Positions 51,160 through 59,315 of a stretch of DNA of 64,000 nucleotides are shown piece by piece (position 1 is the first letter of the stretch; the number at the start of each line of letters is the position of its first letter). The DNA comes from Muricauda sp. SCSIO 64092 (lineage in GTDB: Bacteria; Bacteroidota; Bacteroidia; Flavobacteriales; Flavobacteriaceae), in the NCBI RefSeq assembly GCF_023016285.1, contig NZ_CP095413.1, positions 930,001 through 994,000 of the forward strand. Direction: 5' to 3'. Under the pieces are notes generated by a model. That model searched no databases. It saw only the letters and a program-made list of their open reading frames with translations, and was not told the origin of the DNA. The position numbers were made by a program, and so were the translations under genes.

Positions 51160-51503
51160 TTTTCTATGTTTTTTTTATCCAACTTCTTTTTCACCGCTCC
51201 ATTTGCAGCTAGCGCCAAGGCCCATCCCAAGGAGAAAAAGGACGCCGGTTCGTTACTAATGTCAAGACCTATCAAGGTCTTTATTGCGGTCGCTATGTTC
51301 GGCTCGATGGTAACGACCATCAATAGCAAAAGGACCATGGAAATTGACCAAAGCCAAAACGCCTTGTTATCACCTATGAACTTTTTCCATTGAAATTGTG
51401 AAAGGTGTTCCTTGACCTTCCAAACTGCATAAATGATTATCCCCAAAAGGCCCAAAACCACTTTTATCAATATTCCAAGAGCATCTAATTCCATAACTAT
51501 CAA
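51156..51503 (-). CDS. Phage membrane protein, lysis block
   Basis: 115 residues with three hydrophobic segments (ALGILIKVVLGLLGIIIYAV, FWLWSISMVLLLLMVV and LGWALALAANGAV) separated by charged loops. Perhaps a holin partner or antiholin. It overlaps its neighbours by 4 bases on both sides. Confidence 0.55.
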   Translation of the reverse strand: MIVMELDALGILIKVVLGLLGIIIYAVWKVKEHLSQFQWKKFIGDNKAFWLWSISMVLLLLMVVTIEPNIATAIKTLIGLDISNEPASFFSLGWALALAANGAVKKKLDKKNIEK

Positions 51504-52987
51504 TCCAAAATCCTTATAAATCCGTTCTTCAAGACCCTTTTTACTACTTCGACCGGGGGTTCGTCAGGTGGGTACACCTGGTTTACCACGTCCATTGAGT
51601 ACATTTCAAAATCGTCGTAATGCGGTGACAATGAAAACAGACCTACATTGCTCACATTCCGGTCAAGTTCGTGAGCTATTTCCCAATCATCAGGAATACC
51701 ATCACCATCGGTATCCGTCCTAATCGTTCCCGTAGCGATTGCGGGATAAACAATGTCCGCAATCTCAAAAGGGTGCGAAGTAACCCCTGCAACATAATCA
51801 TCCAAAACGTCCTGTTCCGGGGCAAGTAGTCCGGGGATTGAGGCTCCTATGTGTGGACTTAATTCGTTGAATAATTGCGCAGCCGGGGTGGGCGTAAAAC
51901 CTTCGCTCACCAAAGTTGTGTTGAAAGGAGTAGCCGAATAGCGGTCATCCTTTGCCGCTACACCTGCACTGGAGCTTGTGCCGTCCCTTGCCAGGTTGTC
52001 CCAGGGGTCGAAGCCGTCTAAAGGAGGTCTTGTTGGGCCGATGTTGCCATCATCAATGTAGGTCTGGCTCCCCACCTCATCTACCATTATGGGATAATTG
52101 GTATTCGATGCACTCGAAGTCTCCCAGGCATTATGGATGAAATTTGTTTCCACTTGCCCGCCATTGTCGCCATAGGCAGAAAGGGGGTTGCCCAGTTGGG
52201 CCGGACGTACATAATCGTAGAAAAGGTTGTTGACGTACTCAAACCTTCTTTCTATTCCTGATGTGCAGCTATAACAATGTGTCCTTGGGTTACGTTGGTT
52301 GTTCCCGGAAAAAAAGTTCTTGACAACACTTATCTCGTTGATGTTCCCTGCAATCAATGCGCCCCTGGAATCGTTTCCTCCTATCCCCCTGGCAACCAGC
52401 CCGTATGAAAAGGATACATGGTCCGTTGTTATTTCAGGAAAACCATTCGAGATACTGAAATTCTCGTCCCGACCGTAGAGGACCGAGCAATGATCAAAGT
52501 AAAGGTAGGTTCCGGCTATCTGAAGGTTGTCACCACTGACCCCGTTGGATGGCGGATTGGAGGAACTTCCTCCCTGAAAGGTCTTTAAAAATCGAATTAT
52601 GGCGTTTCCGGCCTGAAACTGGAACAATCCCGTTGTAGTTGATCCATCCGATATAAATACCAAACCGCCACCTCCTATCGGCCCTATGTGGCCATGATAA
52701 CTGTAGTTTGGATTGTTTACGATAATATCGCTCTGTAAGGGTATGTACCCATCTATCTCCTTCATGATATGACGTGTCCTACTATCTTCAAAGGCTGCCC
52801 TTGCGGAACCTGGACCGGAATTGTTCAAATTTGTGATTTTCAGAACCACACCACCACTTCCCCCGGTCGCATACCTCCCCGCACCTATGGCAGGGTACTT
52901 TCCGGTAAAAGCAGGGATTGAATCCGCAATCGTCCTTTGGGAGTTGGCTACGATTGAAAAAAGCAATATGACAATTAGTATTCTCAT
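51500..52987 (-). CDS. Secreted pectate lyase-like parallel beta-helix protein
   Basis: 495-residue protein with a signal peptide (MRILIVILLFSIVANSQ). Residues about 30 to 330 look like a parallel beta-helix polysaccharide lyase (VVLKITNLNNSGPGSARAAF, YFDHCSVLYGRDENFSI), the pattern of PL1-type pectate lyases. Around residue 425 a calcium-binding repeat DTDGDGIPDDWE follows, and the end (KRVLKNGFIRIL) is short. It could be a tail-tip depolymerase or a secreted lysogenic-conversion enzyme. It follows the tail-fibre gene with a 1-base overlap. Confidence 0.72.
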   Translation of the reverse strand: MRILIVILLFSIVANSQRTIADSIPAFTGKYPAIGAGRYATGGSGGVVLKITNLNNSGPGSARAAFEDSRTRHIMKEIDGYIPLQSDIIVNNPNYSYHGHIGPIGGGGLVFISDGSTTTGLFQFQAGNAIIRFLKTFQGGSSSNPPSNGVSGDNLQIAGTYLYFDHCSVLYGRDENFSISNGFPEITTDHVSFSYGLVARGIGGNDSRGALIAGNINEISVVKNFFSGNNQRNPRTHCYSCTSGIERRFEYVNNLFYDYVRPAQLGNPLSAYGDNGGQVETNFIHNAWETSSASNTNYPIMVDEVGSQTYIDDGNIGPTRPPLDGFDPWDNLARDGTSSSAGVAAKDDRYSATPFNTTLVSEGFTPTPAAQLFNELSPHIGASIPGLLAPEQDVLDDYVAGVTSHPFEIADIVYPAIATGTIRTDTDGDGIPDDWEIAHELDRNVSNVGLFSLSPHYDDFEMYSMDVVNQVYPPDEPPVEVVKRVLKNGFIRILD

Positions 52988-55056
52988 CAGTTGGCCACGA
53001 TCAAAAAGTTATCAATGTCGGCATATGCACTAATGGGATTGCCGGTCATATCCGCTACGTAAATCTCAAAAACCTGTGTGGTCGCATTGGCTGTAAACGT
53101 AGTTGTGACCAACCCGTATGATCCGCTGGGGATGTTCCTTGTGCTGCCCGAAACACCTTCTACCACACTGACCATGGTATCCGTGGTATCATTGATTGCC
53201 TTGCCATAAAACGTCCAGGTATAGCTATTTCCAATGGTAAACCCGCTGACCGAGATTTCTGCCCGATTATAGGCATTGTTTTCGTTGTTCGTTACCCGAA
53301 GGTGAAATGAGCCATTTTGTGGATCGGTGCTAATTGACGTAACCGTGACCTGGCCGCCGTTGTCCACCCAATTCGCTACGCTGTTGGTTTCGTTGTTTGG
53401 ATTGGCCGCATCAAGATTCGTGTATAGGTTGGTAGCGATTGTATAGGCAACCGGATCGTGCAACCTGGGCGTCCAGTTGTTGGAGCCATCACATACATAG
53501 GTTACACTACTGCCCTCATTGGTATTTGTTTCGTGGGGATTGGTTATGGTCACCCCGGCACCCGCGGCAAAGGTTATCTTGTTTCCGCTTGATAGGTTCA
53601 TAAAGGAAATGGTCGCGCCGTTTTCATTTTGGGCGGTGGTGAAGGTATAGGTGATATCCGTTCCACTTGAATTGACCAATTGCCTATACCTGTCGCTTAA
53701 TGCCCCGTCCCTTGAGGTGGTCAATGCAAGCAATGAAACAGGAGTGGTCGCGCTCGTCAGATCGGCAGCCTGTTTCTCAAGCTCCGCCTGAACCGTTGAT
53801 TCAGTGACACCGTTCTGAACGGTTGTACCGACCTCGCTTGCGTTTTGGTCCCCTGCGGCCCCGTCCTCAACGTTCAAAATTGTCCTTGCATCAGCAGGGA
53901 ATAAAACTTCTGTGTTCCCAGTGCCTATCCCAGCTCTACGTCCCCAGAAAGTACCTTGCGCTATTTGTTGCAGCTTTGTAACACCAACTGTATTGTTGGT
54001 GAGCTTGCTTCCGTCTATGTTTATACCTATTTTGTCATCCTCGACTGCTCCGTTTTGAATCATGGCGGTTGTGATGCTGTTTGGGCCGGGAGTGCCACCT
54101 GTTGAATATAAGTCAACCTCATTAAATACAACATCCTGCACGCCAAGTGCATTTGGAGTGGCAAAATTAGTTTGAAAAAACTTGTTTGCATTAGCACTCC
54201 CGAAAAGCACGTAAACCAAAGTCCTTGACACTTCTTGTGTTGTGTTAGCATCAGTAGCACGTGTCCAAGCCCCGGTAGAAGCTATATAAATACCATTTTC
54301 TCCAGCACTTGTTTGGTCCTTGACCAAAACCCTGACGCCACTACTTACATTTACACCATCGATCGCTTGCGTACCAGATAGCGTAATATTGGCCGTGGTA
54401 GCAACGCTAACGTTTTCTTTTAAAAAAAGTTCGGGAGAAGACGCCCCACTGATATCATCGGCATACGCAATGTCCCTGTATTGGATGCCGTCATGGACCG
54501 ACAATCTGTTTGTGGCATCATTGAAATATGCCATTCCATTTCCCGAAACCCCGGGAGTAGTCGTTGATTGGGTAAACCTTACGATTCCCAACAATTGCGT
54601 AGCCGCTATTTCGCTTGCATTCGAAATTCCGTTCGTTCCCATATCAAGATTTCCTGTCATCGCCCTTGACCCGTCCAAGGGCAATAATGCATTCAAATCT
54701 GCTGGAAGGGCAAAGGGCCAGATAGGATCGGCAACGTCCACGCTGAAGGTGTTCCCCGTCAGATCGAGGCCGCTCCCCGCGGTGTAGGTGGTGCCGTCAT
54801 TCGTGCTATCCAAATCCAGATTTGGGTATTCCTCCAGGAGCAAATCCCCCATAGTTTTCCAAACATCATCTGCACGCGCAAACTCAAAACGATCGTTGGT
54901 TATGTTCCAACCCCAGAAGACCTTTCCAACAGGCACATCCAAAGCATCCCGTATGGATGTGGTAAAATTGCCCTGGAATTCCATGTAATCGATTTCCAGT
55001 TGTGCCTTGGAAGTCCAACAATTAAACAATACTAGGAGAAACAGTAACTTTTTCAT
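52987..55056 (-). CDS. Tail-fibre-like protein with N-terminal signal peptide
   Basis: 689 residues. The N-terminus MKKLLFLLVLFNCWTSKAQ is a clear signal peptide, odd for a virion protein. Fibre-type repeats include DGSRAMTGNLDMGTNGISNA and TAMIQNGAVEDDKIGIN, and the last about 150 residues form a beta-sandwich like a carbohydrate-binding module (WTFYGKAINDTTDTMVSVVEG). It lies between an 80-residue membrane protein and the lyase. Its role in host binding is inferred from the fibre repeats. Confidence 0.7.
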   Translation of the reverse strand: MKKLLFLLVLFNCWTSKAQLEIDYMEFQGNFTTSIRDALDVPVGKVFWGWNITNDRFEFARADDVWKTMGDLLLEEYPNLDLDSTNDGTTYTAGSGLDLTGNTFSVDVADPIWPFALPADLNALLPLDGSRAMTGNLDMGTNGISNASEIAATQLLGIVRFTQSTTTPGVSGNGMAYFNDATNRLSVHDGIQYRDIAYADDISGASSPELFLKENVSVATTANITLSGTQAIDGVNVSSGVRVLVKDQTSAGENGIYIASTGAWTRATDANTTQEVSRTLVYVLFGSANANKFFQTNFATPNALGVQDVVFNEVDLYSTGGTPGPNSITTAMIQNGAVEDDKIGINIDGSKLTNNTVGVTKLQQIAQGTFWGRRAGIGTGNTEVLFPADARTILNVEDGAAGDQNASEVGTTVQNGVTESTVQAELEKQAADLTSATTPVSLLALTTSRDGALSDRYRQLVNSSGTDITYTFTTAQNENGATISFMNLSSGNKITFAAGAGVTITNPHETNTNEGSSVTYVCDGSNNWTPRLHDPVAYTIATNLYTNLDAANPNNETNSVANWVDNGGQVTVTSISTDPQNGSFHLRVTNNENNAYNRAEISVSGFTIGNSYTWTFYGKAINDTTDTMVSVVEGVSGSTRNIPSGSYGLVTTTFTANATTQVFEIYVADMTGNPISAYADIDNFLIVAN

Positions 55057-56583: not shown

Positions 56584-56776
56584 AAAAAAATCGTGCGTTT
56601 GAACAAAGCGCGGTAATCTACTAAAAATGAGTGCGTTGGAGCGCACACCCCAATCGTGCAAAATCGTGCAATCGCCACAAAAGCACAAACGCACGATTGC
56701 GCACTTTTCAAGTGTGCGGTATACTACATTGATTTTCAATACCTTATAAGCCCTTGCACAAACGCACGATTTTTTT
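56584..56776. repeat. ATCGTGC repeat cluster, candidate origin or control region
   Basis: Five copies of AATCGTGC occur: plus strand at 56589, 56652 and 56662, inverted at 56691 and 56764. A 16-base direct repeat GCACAAACGCACGATT is at 56683-56698 and 56756-56771. Perfect 18-base inverted arms lie at 56584-56601 and 56759-56776. The 56486-57004 stretch contains no supported gene (a 28-codon plus-strand frame at 56833 is the only candidate). The layout resembles phage replication origin iterons or repressor sites. Confidence 0.6.
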
Positions 56777-56925: not shown

Positions 56926-56951
56926 CAAAAGTTGCCATCGGGCAACTTTTG
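56926..56951 (-). terminator. Hairpin 2 downstream of the DGR operon
   Basis: Perfect 11-base-pair stem (56926-56936 with 56941-56951) with a 4-base loop, followed on the minus strand by ACCTTTTT. It may back up the preceding hairpin. Confidence 0.6.
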
Positions 56952-56960
56952 GGCATAAAT

Positions 56961-56981
56961 AAACCGGCACAAGGCCGGTTT
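56961..56981 (-). terminator. Hairpin 1 downstream of the DGR operon
   Basis: 8-base-pair stem AAACCGGC/GCCGGTTT with a 5-base loop, 23 bases after the stop of the 98-residue gene. The minus strand continues TTTATTTAT, giving a probable terminator for the reverse-transcriptase operon. Confidence 0.65.
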
Positions 56982-57004: not shown

Positions 57005-57301
57005 TCATGTAAACTCATAGTACTCATTTTCCTTGATGATTGTAGCATTAAAGGGAAAACTATCCTTGGGCACTTTTTCAATCTGCTGTATCAAAATAGT
57101 CCCACTGGTAAAAAGCACATGCTTGTTGCCTTTTAGCTGAAACTCCAACCAAAGGCAGTTTTCGCTTTTTTCATACAGGCTGGGTCTAACAGTGTAATTT
57201 GTTACGGTTATCTCACGGTTCAGCACGCGGCTGATATTGATTTTGTCCCCTACCAGGGAAGTGATTTCCGGCTTAATATTAAAGTCTTTAAACTGATTCA
57301 T
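57005..57301 (-). CDS. Small protein downstream of the DGR reverse transcriptase (possible accessory factor)
   Basis: 98-residue basic/beta-mixed protein (INISRVLNREITVTNYTVRP, then LWLEFQLKGNKHVLFTSG). No family recognised; not like Avd. It overlaps the reverse-transcriptase gene by 14 bases, the last gene before the operon terminators. Tight coupling suggests co-expression and perhaps a role in cDNA synthesis or homing, but this is unproven. Confidence 0.5.
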   Translation of the reverse strand: MNQFKDFNIKPEITSLVGDKINISRVLNREITVTNYTVRPSLYEKSENCLWLEFQLKGNKHVLFTSGTILIQQIEKVPKDSFPFNATIIKENEYYEFT

Positions 57302-58247
57302 CTAAAAGGGTTTTTATGAGGTTTTTGGAGTTACAGTGTTTGGCCCAGCCCAAATAGCTGGCCGTTGATGCCGGGTTTGGATTTTGCTTCAATGACCTGG
57401 CAAAACTTTTTTTGATGGATTTCCGCAACAGGGTGTGCGTATGGAAGAACTTGTAGCCCACAAAATCAATGCCCCTGGCCTCCACTGGGAATACTTGGTA
57501 ATTTCCTTTTACGGACAGCCCTAACCGCGTATCCAAATAGGTTTTGATTTCATTAAGAAGTGCGTGCAAATAGGGTTTGTCACTGCTAAGAATCACCAAA
57601 TCATCCGCATATCTGAAATAATGTTGCACGCACTTTTCTTCCTTTAGCCAATGGTCAAAGTAAGTAAGGTAGAAATTGGCCAAGTATTGGCTCAGGTAAT
57701 TGCCTATCGGGAGGCCGGGGGCGCTGTCAATGATTTCGTCCAACAGCCAGAGCAGGTCATTGTCTTTTAGTTTCTTTCTGAGTAGGTTTTTTAAAATGGC
57801 ATGGTCAATACTGGTGTAGAATTTGGTAACATCCAGTTTAAGGCAAAATTGGGTGCCATCTTTTTCCTTTAGTGCTTTTTTGATTGCCCGGACACAGGAA
57901 TGGATGCCCCTTCCCTTGATGCAGCTATAGGTATCTGCAGTGAAAGTGGCCACAAAAATGGGCTCCAGAACGTTCATAATGGCATGGTGGGTAATACGAT
58001 CGGGATAATAAGGCAATCGATATACGGTCCGCTCCTTGGGCTCGAATACTTGAAAAATGTCGTAAGGTGAAGTTTGATAGGTTTTGGTCTTCAGCAAGTG
58101 ATGAAGTTTTAGGATATTGGCCTCCCGGTTTCGGTTGTGCAATTGTACGCCGTATTGTTTGGATTTACCCTTTTGTGCCTTTTCATCGGCAAATCTGAGG
58201 TTATCCGCTGAAATGATTTTTTGATATAGGTTTCCTTTCCGTTTCAT
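57288..58247 (-). CDS. DGR-type reverse transcriptase
   Basis: 319-residue group-II-like reverse transcriptase. Motif A is KLDVTKFYTSID (Asp139); the DGR-diagnostic motif B reads LPIGNYLSQYLANFY with SQ at 186-187 where group II intron and retron enzymes have SP; motif C is YFRYADDLVIL (YADD at 213-216). No maturase or endonuclease domain is present. It copies the template repeat RNA with errors at adenines. The template repeat lies just upstream, the two target genes upstream of that. Length is usual for this group (about 300 to 400 residues). Confidence 0.93.
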   Translation of the reverse strand: MKRKGNLYQKIISADNLRFADEKAQKGKSKQYGVQLHNRNREANILKLHHLLKTKTYQTSPYDIFQVFEPKERTVYRLPYYPDRITHHAIMNVLEPIFVATFTADTYSCIKGRGIHSCVRAIKKALKEKDGTQFCLKLDVTKFYTSIDHAILKNLLRKKLKDNDLLWLLDEIIDSAPGLPIGNYLSQYLANFYLTYFDHWLKEEKCVQHYFRYADDLVILSSDKPYLHALLNEIKTYLDTRLGLSVKGNYQVFPVEARGIDFVGYKFFHTHTLLRKSIKKSFARSLKQNPNPASTASYLGWAKHCNSKNLIKTLLDESV

Positions 58248-58343
58248 GCCTTTGCTTTAAAAGGTCGTTTTCCGTTTGTACCAACGCCCTTTTTGGTAAT
58301 GTTATCTTTTGCCATGTTGGCAGGGTCCGCAATGCCCAATATC

Positions 58344-58427
58344 TTTTGCATAGGTGGGAGCTGACGTTCGAGTTCGAGTTCCAGTTATCGTAGTCGTTGT
58401 ACGCAAACCTGGAGCCTGACGAGCCGC
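58344..58427 (-). ncRNA. DGR template repeat (TR)
   Basis: 84-base stretch on the minus strand between the second target gene and the reverse transcriptase. It is homologous to both variable repeats; its reading of the core is YNDYDNWNSNSN, that is, mostly AAC, TAC and GAC/GAT codons, the typical adenine-rich template design. The core (58367-58401) holds 14 adenines. Read as protein it would lie in a frame of 84 codons (58201-58455), but that frame is more likely a by-product of homology than a gene. Confidence 0.9.
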
Positions 58428-58454
58428 AACTTTGGCATTGCGCCACCGATTTCA

Positions 58455-58829
58455 TCAGTATTGAATTAAAAAATAGTCCTTGTAAAGCTCTTCAAATTGT
58501 TTTCCGGCGTACTTCGCAATTTCGCTCGATTTAAAGCAAAGGCGGGAGCCGACGCCCGAGCGCGAGCGCCAGCTAACGGAGTCGCAGGGCGCAAACCCGG
58601 AGCCCGACGAGCCGCCCATGCTGAACCAGGGACAATACTTGTCCCATTCCCTGTTTCCCCAATCCGGTTTCCAATCCCCATTTAAGGCTTGTGCAATAAT
58701 GACCAGTTTGGCATGGGCAACCATTGCCTTTTGATGTTCCTCCTGGAACATGGAGAAATCCGGGATTACTTTTTCGGGGTCCAGCCCCAATACTTTACAA
58801 GCGTCTTCAAACGTTTTAATCTGTTCCAT
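58455..58829 (-). CDS. DGR target protein 2
   Basis: 124-residue soluble protein with C-terminal variable repeat. A helical N-terminal region leads to a C-type-lectin-like end: KPDWGNREWDKYCPWFSMGG, then the variable stretch PCDSVSWRSRSG (residues 81 to 92) and the constant VGSRLCFKSSEIAKYAGKQF. Related to target protein 1 throughout. Short, with no signal peptide or membrane segment. The stop is separated from the template repeat by about 30 bases. Its ligand is unknown. Confidence 0.85.
   Translation of the reverse strand: MEQIKTFEDACKVLGLDPEKVIPDFSMFQEEHQKAMVAHAKLVIIAQALNGDWKPDWGNREWDKYCPWFSMGGSSGSGFAPCDSVSWRSRSGVGSRLCFKSSEIAKYAGKQFEELYKDYFLIQY
58532..58615 (-). repeat. DGR variable repeat 2 (VR2)
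   Basis: Aligned without gaps to the template repeat at an offset of 188 bases. In the core it differs at 12 template adenines and at one other base (T to C). Flanking differences at both ends are shared exactly with VR1. Confidence 0.9.
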
Positions 58830-58841
58830 ATTGAATTACAT

Positions 58842-59315
58842 TTAAATGATAAAAAAATCTTTGTAGATGTCGGTAAATTGTTCCCCTGCATAGCGGGCCA
58901 ATTCCCTACTTTTAAAGCAAAGGCGGGAGCCGACGTACGAGTACGAGTGCCAGATACCGTAGCCGAGGTACGCAAACCCGGAGCCCGACGAGCCGCCCAT
59001 GTTGAACCAGGGCTGGTATTTGTACTGATTGCTGTTTCCCCAGTCAGGTGTCCATCCCTCATTAAGGGCCTTGACAATCAATTTTAGTTTTCGGTAGGCT
59101 ACCTCATCTTTTGAGAGTGCTGCACATTCTACTTCAAATTCCTGTTTGTCCAACTGGTGATACTCCAGGACATCATCGAAGCTTTTTATGCGCTCCTTAA
59201 TGTCCTTGACAAAGGTGTTCTTACCAAAAAGGTCCTCCAGAAGTTTCTTTCCGGCGGCTTTGGCATTTTCGTGGGCAGTCAAGGCCGCCTCCTTTTTAAT
59301 CTGTAATGATTCCAT
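58842..59315 (-). CDS. DGR target protein 1
   Basis: 157-residue soluble protein. An N-terminal coiled region (residues 1 to 40) is absent from target 2; the rest aligns with it. The C-terminal lectin-like end reads TPDWGNSNQYKYQPWFNMGG, variable stretch YLGYGIWHSYSY (residues 116 to 127), then VGSRLCFKSRELARYAGEQF. Similar small target proteins occur beside DGRs in Bacteroidota phages by my recollection. It is separated by 12 bases from target 2, so both are co-transcribed. Confidence 0.85.
   Translation of the reverse strand: MESLQIKKEAALTAHENAKAAGKKLLEDLFGKNTFVKDIKERIKSFDDVLEYHQLDKQEFEVECAALSKDEVAYRKLKLIVKALNEGWTPDWGNSNQYKYQPWFNMGGSSGSGFAYLGYGIWHSYSYVGSRLCFKSRELARYAGEQFTDIYKDFFII
58913..58996 (-). 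repeat. DGR variable repeat 1 (VR1)
   Basis: Aligned without gaps to the template repeat at an offset of 569 bases. All eight core differences are at template adenines. The 3' end encodes the constant VGSRLCFK, the likely IMH zone where homing starts. Confidence 0.9.

Follow-up and report, generated by a model that had tools for sequence, protein, structure and literature searches.

The 64,000-nucleotide window analyzed here (positions 930,001 to 994,000 of contig NZ_CP095413.1, assembly GCF_023016285.1, Muricauda sp. SCSIO 64092, Bacteroidota) carries a diversity-generating retroelement (DGR) on its minus strand at 56.9-59.3 kb. The order of its parts is target gene 1, target gene 2, template repeat (TR), reverse transcriptase (RT) gene and a 98-aa open reading frame (ORF), followed by two hairpins; each target gene contains a variable repeat (VR) whose 3′ end resembles an initiation of mutagenic homing (IMH) site. 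The locus is a real DGR, with its parts confirmed, and from its sequence we take it to belong to a Bacteroidota prophage and to diversify a tandem pair of short proteins. The DGR itself is of a known kind, and the chief novelty lies in its spacer. It is set apart as a variant by a family of structured spacer RNAs, a segment of the spacer that matches the VR ends of the targets, and an accessory gene for a protein with a predicted OB-like fold, none of which appeared in the initial annotation. The features of the cassette are the following.

58842-59315 (−): target gene 1 (157 aa) with a VR near its 3′ end; ORF of phrog_11581 (unknown function), no Pfam family at gathering score
58913-58996 (−): VR1; 16/16 differences from TR at TR adenines
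58909-58924 (−): IMH-like VR1 3′ end, fully complementary to the spacer segment (16/16 inverted repeat)
58455-58829 (−): target gene 2 (124 aa); ORF of phrog_11581
58532-58615 (−): VR2; 20/21 differences from TR at TR adenines
58530-58543 (−): IMH-like VR2 3′ end, complementary to the spacer segment over 14 nt with no mismatch (inverted repeat)
58431-58442 (−): 5′ arm of the TR-closing stem, 12 nt, 92% complementary inverted repeat
58344-58427 (−): TR, 84 nt with 23 adenines (repeat alignment and genome pattern search)
58328-58339 (−): 3′ arm of the TR-closing stem (inverted repeat and clade swap test)
58263-58350 (−): structured spacer RNA (covariation; matched by the covariance model R2, described below, at E 1e-15 in its own genome, the window being in the R2 training set)
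58322-58320 / 58312-58310 (−): helix 1 of the spacer RNA (covariation)
58289-58284 / 58268-58263 (−): helix 2 of the spacer RNA (covariation)
58248-58263 (−): proposed primer/guide segment adjoining the RT start codon upstream; complementary to the VR ends, poorly to the TR end
57288-58247 (−): DGR-type RT (319 aa); phrog_1423, RVT_1, BPP-1 brt
57005-57301 (−): 98-aa accessory protein, predicted OB-like fold; overlaps the RT 3′ end
56961-56981 (−): hairpin after the unit, 8-bp stem, read from the sequence
56926-56951 (−): terminator-like hairpin

Identity of the element and adenine-specific variation

The RT ORF holds the YADD motif and an SQ-containing stretch (APGLPIGNYLSQ), matches the phage RT family phrog_1423 at 1e-118, and is 35.5% identical to brt of Bordetella phage BPP-1 (E 1e-39), which bears out the DGR-type RT of the initial annotation. 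Against the NCBIfam model for group II intron RTs it scores 113 bits, far under the cut-off of 300 bits. The annotation had also described a co-directional unit ending at two hairpins, and both hairpins were found (56926-56951 and 56961-56981). Its term "complete" holds for the RT, TR and VRs and not for the gene set of BPP-1: no Pfam match to Avd was obtained among the ten window ORFs scanned, and a divergent Avd could lie elsewhere. The cassette had no Rfam match at gathering score. In the gap past the hairpins (56589-56771) a GCACAAACGCACGATT motif is repeated, twice in direct orientation and once as an inverted copy of 13 nt.

In ungapped alignments, VR1 differs from the TR at 16 positions, all of them TR adenines, and VR2 at 21, with 20 at TR adenines and T58401 as the exception; the adenine-rich template with two homologous variable repeats that had been annotated is present. 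VR1 and VR2 stop 71 and 77 nt short of their ORF ends. When the first 65 nt of the TR, with N at adenines and up to 3 mismatches, were used as a pattern, only the TR, VR1 and VR2 were matched in the whole 5.69-Mb genome; the reversed control gave zero matches genome-wide, and this pattern search found no further VRs elsewhere in the genome. Variation confined to adenines is also seen among relatives, as the annotation had anticipated: between near-identical phages that share a TR, 226/245 VR differences lie at TR adenines (23 pairs), and within the window element's own clade 132/140 do (12 pairs), although the pairs overlap and are not independent. No second copy of the window prophage was found among ten other same-genus genomes.

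RT scans supplied the relatives, with 79 loci from genomes and a further 80 from viruses, the best of 380; a scan with the crAss LMMB RT confirmed no relative. The "own clade" is the Bacteroidota (pro)phage group to which the window DGR belongs. Of 311 entries analyzed, 229 loci had a TR/VR and remained after removal of identical spacers; 36 of these are near-duplicates, leaving 193. L050, L224, L226, L228, L231 and L290 (partial RT) were left out. In many relatives the TR ends ~100 nt ahead of the RT, with VRs at similar offsets.

A spacer RNA with a segment complementary to VR ends

Segment 58248-58263, which abuts the RT start codon, complements the VR1 end without a mismatch over 16 nt and the VR2 end over 14 nt. 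The TR end fits it poorly, with two adenines at pairing positions, and is three nt short when a gap is allowed. The 14-mer of the segment occurs three times in the 5.69-Mb genome, exactly at the segment, the VR1 end and the VR2 end.

The same relationship recurs in the own clade. Among 119 distinct loci the spacer pairs better with the VR than with the TR in 96, equally in 14 and worse in 9. The mean pairing of own spacer-VR pairs is 8.18, compared with a maximum of 7.71 in 2000 swaps between loci and of 7.82 when swaps were confined to RT-identity groups. Mean mismatches of the best 9-mer are 0.50 to the VR and 3.43 to the TR (159 VR instances, 94/119 loci); as this contrast partly follows from picking the best VR match, the weight is carried by the swaps and by the profile along the target. 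Duplex energies in the clade are −12.6 kcal/mol for segment and VR, −5.9 for segment and TR, and −3.8 for a shuffled TR end. As a rule the segment is found no more than ~16 nt from the RT start codon, and many of the loci share the core GCCTTTGCTTT/AAAGCAAAGGC. As a separate observation, in several Bacteroidales relatives (L025-L029, L033-L038, L040, L042, L044) both the TR (~115 nt) and the spacer are longer; the segment that these share, AAGCAAA, is shorter.

Across all 229 loci, the longest spacer pairing run in 20-nt windows along the target averages 5.1-5.7 and peaks at the VR end with 6.86-7.26, compared with 5.13 at the TR end; after removal of near-duplicates the VR-end peak is 7.27 (193 loci). 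Runs of at least 7 occur at 172/229 VR ends and 45/229 TR ends (141/193 and 34/193 without near-duplicates), and in 15% of shuffled spacers. The excess is found in the Bacteroidota group (VR 72/99, TR 13/99), the BPP-1 group (28/36, 3/36), the group of Bacteroides phage Versailles (14/14, 7/14), the Clostridia group (6/7, 3/7) and a mixed group (16/28, 3/28). Spacers of the BPP-1, Bacteroidota, Clostridia and Versailles groups, four of the six, pair best with the VRs of their own group, and the segments are unrelated between groups (AAAGCAAAGGC, GTGGTCA, AACGGCACA, AACATCAA, GACATAAG).

In BPP-1 itself, nine Watson-Crick pairs (ten counting a G-U) join spacer nt 48-56 to the VR IMH, and the same stretch makes no run of 6 within the final 60 nt of the TR; the pairing ends at nt 56, the reported priming adenine. 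Passages of the 2026 BPP-1 study report that an internal adenine of the spacer primes (PMC12875486). No statement of spacer-VR complementarity was found in the DGR literature looked at, which was only partly searched for this point, and it is quite possible that the spacer-IMH pairing of BPP-1 has already been noted in earlier work.

The spacer is structured. An alignment of 55 own-clade spacers supports ten conserved pairs, nine of them changed on both sides; 97.4% of 549 paired cells are complementary, compared with 76.7% for shuffled and at most 46.1% for slid alignments, and 113 cells are changed on both sides versus 28. Folding of the single window sequence 58240-58450 was no stabler than shuffles (z −0.33), so the structure is seen only through the alignment. 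The TR (58328-58442 with its arms) lies inside a long-range stem. Within the own clade, the two arms of a locus pair at 6.96, compared with a maximum of 5.78 with swapped flanks. By group, arms of the same locus pair better than swapped arms among Bacteroidota, Versailles and mixed-group loci, and do not exceed the permuted maximum among BPP-1, Clostridia and named-phage loci.

A first covariance model, R1, contained the segment itself, which made its agreement with the VR rule (30/39) partly circular, and it was set aside. The model R2 was built without the segment columns. It matches the spacer in 57/67 sources, including crAss, Clostridia and Versailles-like elements, and in 42/50 sources with a run of at least 7, against 4.6 sources expected, the segment ends 10-22 nt 3′ of helix 2, typically at ~15-16 nt. 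The count is 38/45 after five sources were left out (L284 and L062, which overlap the training set, and one each of the near-duplicates L288/L330, L300/L304 and L257/L258); second, off-spacer R2 matches of L070 and L071 are omitted from both counts.

R2 can be used to search for DGR spacer RNAs without a protein. In 296 same-phylum genomes it found the window and three others (L339, L340 and L341), so that one of three new matches in the 295 further genomes is a DGR. This is L339, where an RT and an OB-like protein accompany a TR and a VR that differ at 24 positions, all adenines; its segment is at the predicted place (+13), but TR and VR are identical there, so the locus does not discriminate. 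The weak matches at L340:1501-1586 and L341:1501-1586 have no RT or TR/VR in the 3 kb of sequence around each and are probably false positives.

VR composition changes near the segment. At TR adenines 12 to ~50 nt upstream of it, VR letters have entropies of 1.2-2.0 bits, and two of the TR adenines that the segment covers have an almost invariant VR letter (56/58 T and 45/49 T).

Proposed primer and guide functions of the segment, and alternative explanations

We consider it probable, from the sequence comparisons, that the segment is a primer and guide matched to the target that spares the template. It would prime complementary DNA (cDNA) synthesis in place of the internal priming adenine of BPP-1, pairing imperfectly with the TR end to start reverse transcription; for the own clade, we infer the priming site from sequence. 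The RNA-primed cDNA would then bear a 5′ tag to which the VR end is a perfect complement and the TR end is not. Such a tag could direct mutagenized cDNA to the targets, keep the VR end unchanged over successive rounds, and spare the template. Since target and template would differ in their pairing with the segment, the address would lie in the RNA.

Parts of the 2026 BPP-1 study (PMC12875486) describe covalent cDNA-RNA hybrids and a higher efficiency when the lagging-strand template is the strand complementary to the cDNA, and cite an Okazaki-like proposal from earlier work. These results would fit an RNA-tipped cDNA that anneals to a single-stranded target. The mutation boundary at the VR end agrees with the primer and guide reading, short of proof.

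Several observations weigh against this reading. Nine named phages have no VR excess (VR 5/9, TR 5/9) and no own-group preference, mixed-group spacers score slightly higher against Bacteroidota VRs (6.70) than against the VRs of their own group (6.45), and at 57/229 loci no run at the VR end reaches 7. The loci are related by descent, and the permutations carry no phylogeny correction. The BPP-1 spacer has two other 9-nt runs with the region just downstream of the VR, and runs that long occur in 3.5% of shuffles (L165). Segment-TR pairing is only slightly stronger than pairing with a shuffled TR end in the BPP-1 group (−8.9 vs −8.0 kcal/mol) and the Versailles group (−7.7 vs −7.1 kcal/mol), and gives weak support for priming there. 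R2 matches none of eight BPP-1-clade sources, nor L245 (phage Versailles itself) or L262; the scaffold is thus not shown for BPP-1, the one system with biochemistry. Eight of the 50 segments are out of register with the R2 model. At the VR end, entropies under the segment span 0.25-1.50, so VR letters are not fixed at every TR adenine, and the last segment nucleotide faces a TR adenine in 64/159 own-clade VR instances, often leaving the primer end unpaired. VR letters are also nearly fixed 7-9 nt 5′ of the segment (61/61 G at one position) and at TR adenines of the TR 5′ end; this fixation outside the segment perhaps stems from protein selection.

The strongest rival is an ordinary DGR in which the segment primes on the TR as in BPP-1 and the VR match is a by-product of primer copying at homing, with no guiding. 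Copying of an RNA primer would by itself make the VR match the spacer, with no selection for target recognition needed, and it accounts equally well for the VR-end peak, the run counts and the fixed VR letters. What it leaves unexplained is the recurrent mismatch between TR and VR, which would spare the TR; in BPP-1, a 21-bp part of the IMH with five TR mismatches sets the direction of transfer, according to passages of PMC3240598. We regard the by-product explanation as possible but unlikely.

In a regulatory alternative, the target mRNA would bind the translation start region of the RT through its VR end and so repress RT production, and the segment would be unrelated to cDNA. This would suit the own-clade position of the segment, mostly no more than ~16 nt from the RT start codon and abutting it in the window. 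The segment is not tied to the start codon, however, because its distance upstream of the RT start reaches 94-136 nt in the Versailles-like copies (36 nt in one) and ~88 nt in BPP-1, and regulation predicts neither the VR-end peak nor the fixed distance to helix 2; we judge it improbable. That VR ends are constrained to encode RLCF, and are complementary by chance to a translation-start motif in the spacer, is very improbable: the sharing of GCCTTTGCTTT/AAAGCAAAGGC by many own-clade loci would favor such a coding artifact, but other groups carry unrelated pairs (AACATCAA, AACGGCACA, GACATAAG, GTGGTCA) that match their own VRs, four groups favor their own VRs, and own pairs beat swapped pairs within the clade.

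Extending the primer and guide reading beyond the own clade, many non-BPP-1 DGRs may share a guide-like spacer RNA, with a fixed scaffold, a set distance, and an address of 8-16 nt of free sequence, for the target genes rather than the template, that would serve as both primer and homing tag; we hold the chances for and against this generalization to be about equal.

Target proteins, neighboring genes and related DGRs

The window DGR resembles that of BPP-1 in its same-family RT, the TR upstream of the RT, adenine-specific VR/TR differences, a VR near the target 3′ end, IMH-like departure of the VR from the TR at the 3′ end, and complementarity of a spacer segment to the VR IMH. In contrast, BPP-1 has a single 381-aa tail-protein target (mtd) in place of two short proteins, and Avd where the window has the predicted OB-like protein downstream of the RT. 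A hairpin 3′ of the VR with z < −2 is present in 90% of 21 BPP-1-clade loci and in 11% of 81 own-clade loci, so at the clade level a BPP-1-style hairpin/cruciform just 3′ of the VR is not a feature of the own clade.

The DGRs of Bacteroides phage Versailles-like and crAss-like phages have RTs related to the window RT. R2 matches 12/13 Versailles-group viral contigs (best L277, E 4.5e-9; weakest 0.39), not the Versailles record L245; this group has a different segment (AACGGCACA) and single, longer targets (median 451 aa), unlike the short tandem targets here. In crAss L242 and L243, R2 matches at about 1e-7, and neither phage yielded a VR-matched segment in register.

Two or more short targets occur in 87/117 own-clade loci. 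The contrast that the initial annotation drew between short tandem targets and the best-studied tail-fiber targets stands, therefore, without being unique to this element. A profile of the target family matches 2879 protein clusters, and no Pfam domain was present in the 120 of these that were listed. In the structural model of target 1 the N-terminal part is confidently helical and the VR loop has low confidence (predicted local distance difference test, pLDDT, ~50); the model has no match to solved structures in the PDB. VR-like copies lie far from the TR in some relatives, ~3.7-3.9 kb upstream in L019 and L031 and 6.4 kb downstream in L140, so DGR targets can sit away from the cassette.

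Neighbors of the relatives were surveyed by scanning 90/146 downstream and 89/134 upstream ORFs. Among the 25 commonest families of 114 downstream and of 130 upstream, the named PHROGs are DNA methyltransferases, helicases, Mu Gam, ParB, replication initiation, terminase and similar, and none is a tail family. The window likewise has two DNA methyltransferase genes upstream of the targets. Downstream of the cassette, past the hairpins, are pectate-lyase-like and tail-fiber-like phage genes (51500-52987 and 52987-55056), and no VR was found in either (51500-55056).

In the parts consulted of the viral DGR survey of Roux et al. 2021 (PMC8144416), targets of clades 1, 4 and 6 are annotated mostly as tail proteins, and annotated VRs have C-type lectin folds. 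The window DGR is like the viral DGRs covered there in being phage-borne, in a 3′-terminal VR, and in that Bacteroidota are among the hosts. It is unlike the tail targets of those parts of the survey in that its targets are short, with a model that has no solved-fold match, and unlike their tail setting in that sampled neighbors of its relatives are often DNA methyltransferase, replication and terminase genes.

The gene for the 98-aa protein is conserved in the clade. Relatives lie at L246:4986-5279 and L248:5029-5325. Its OB-like family sits after the DGR RT in Bacteroidota phages and two archaeal viruses (vir525 and ANMV-1), and has no consistent Pfam match. More tentatively, the predicted OB-like protein may handle single-stranded cDNA. 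The OB-like protein, together with short targets outside tail genes, points to a large and little-studied branch of DGRs.

The integration of DGR cDNA into the target is called unresolved in passages of PMC12875486, and a sequence rule for primer and address that applies to many elements makes this question directly testable. If the proposal is true, a dual primer and tag segment would answer how a DGR tells its target from its template, and the address of an element would be readable from its RNA.

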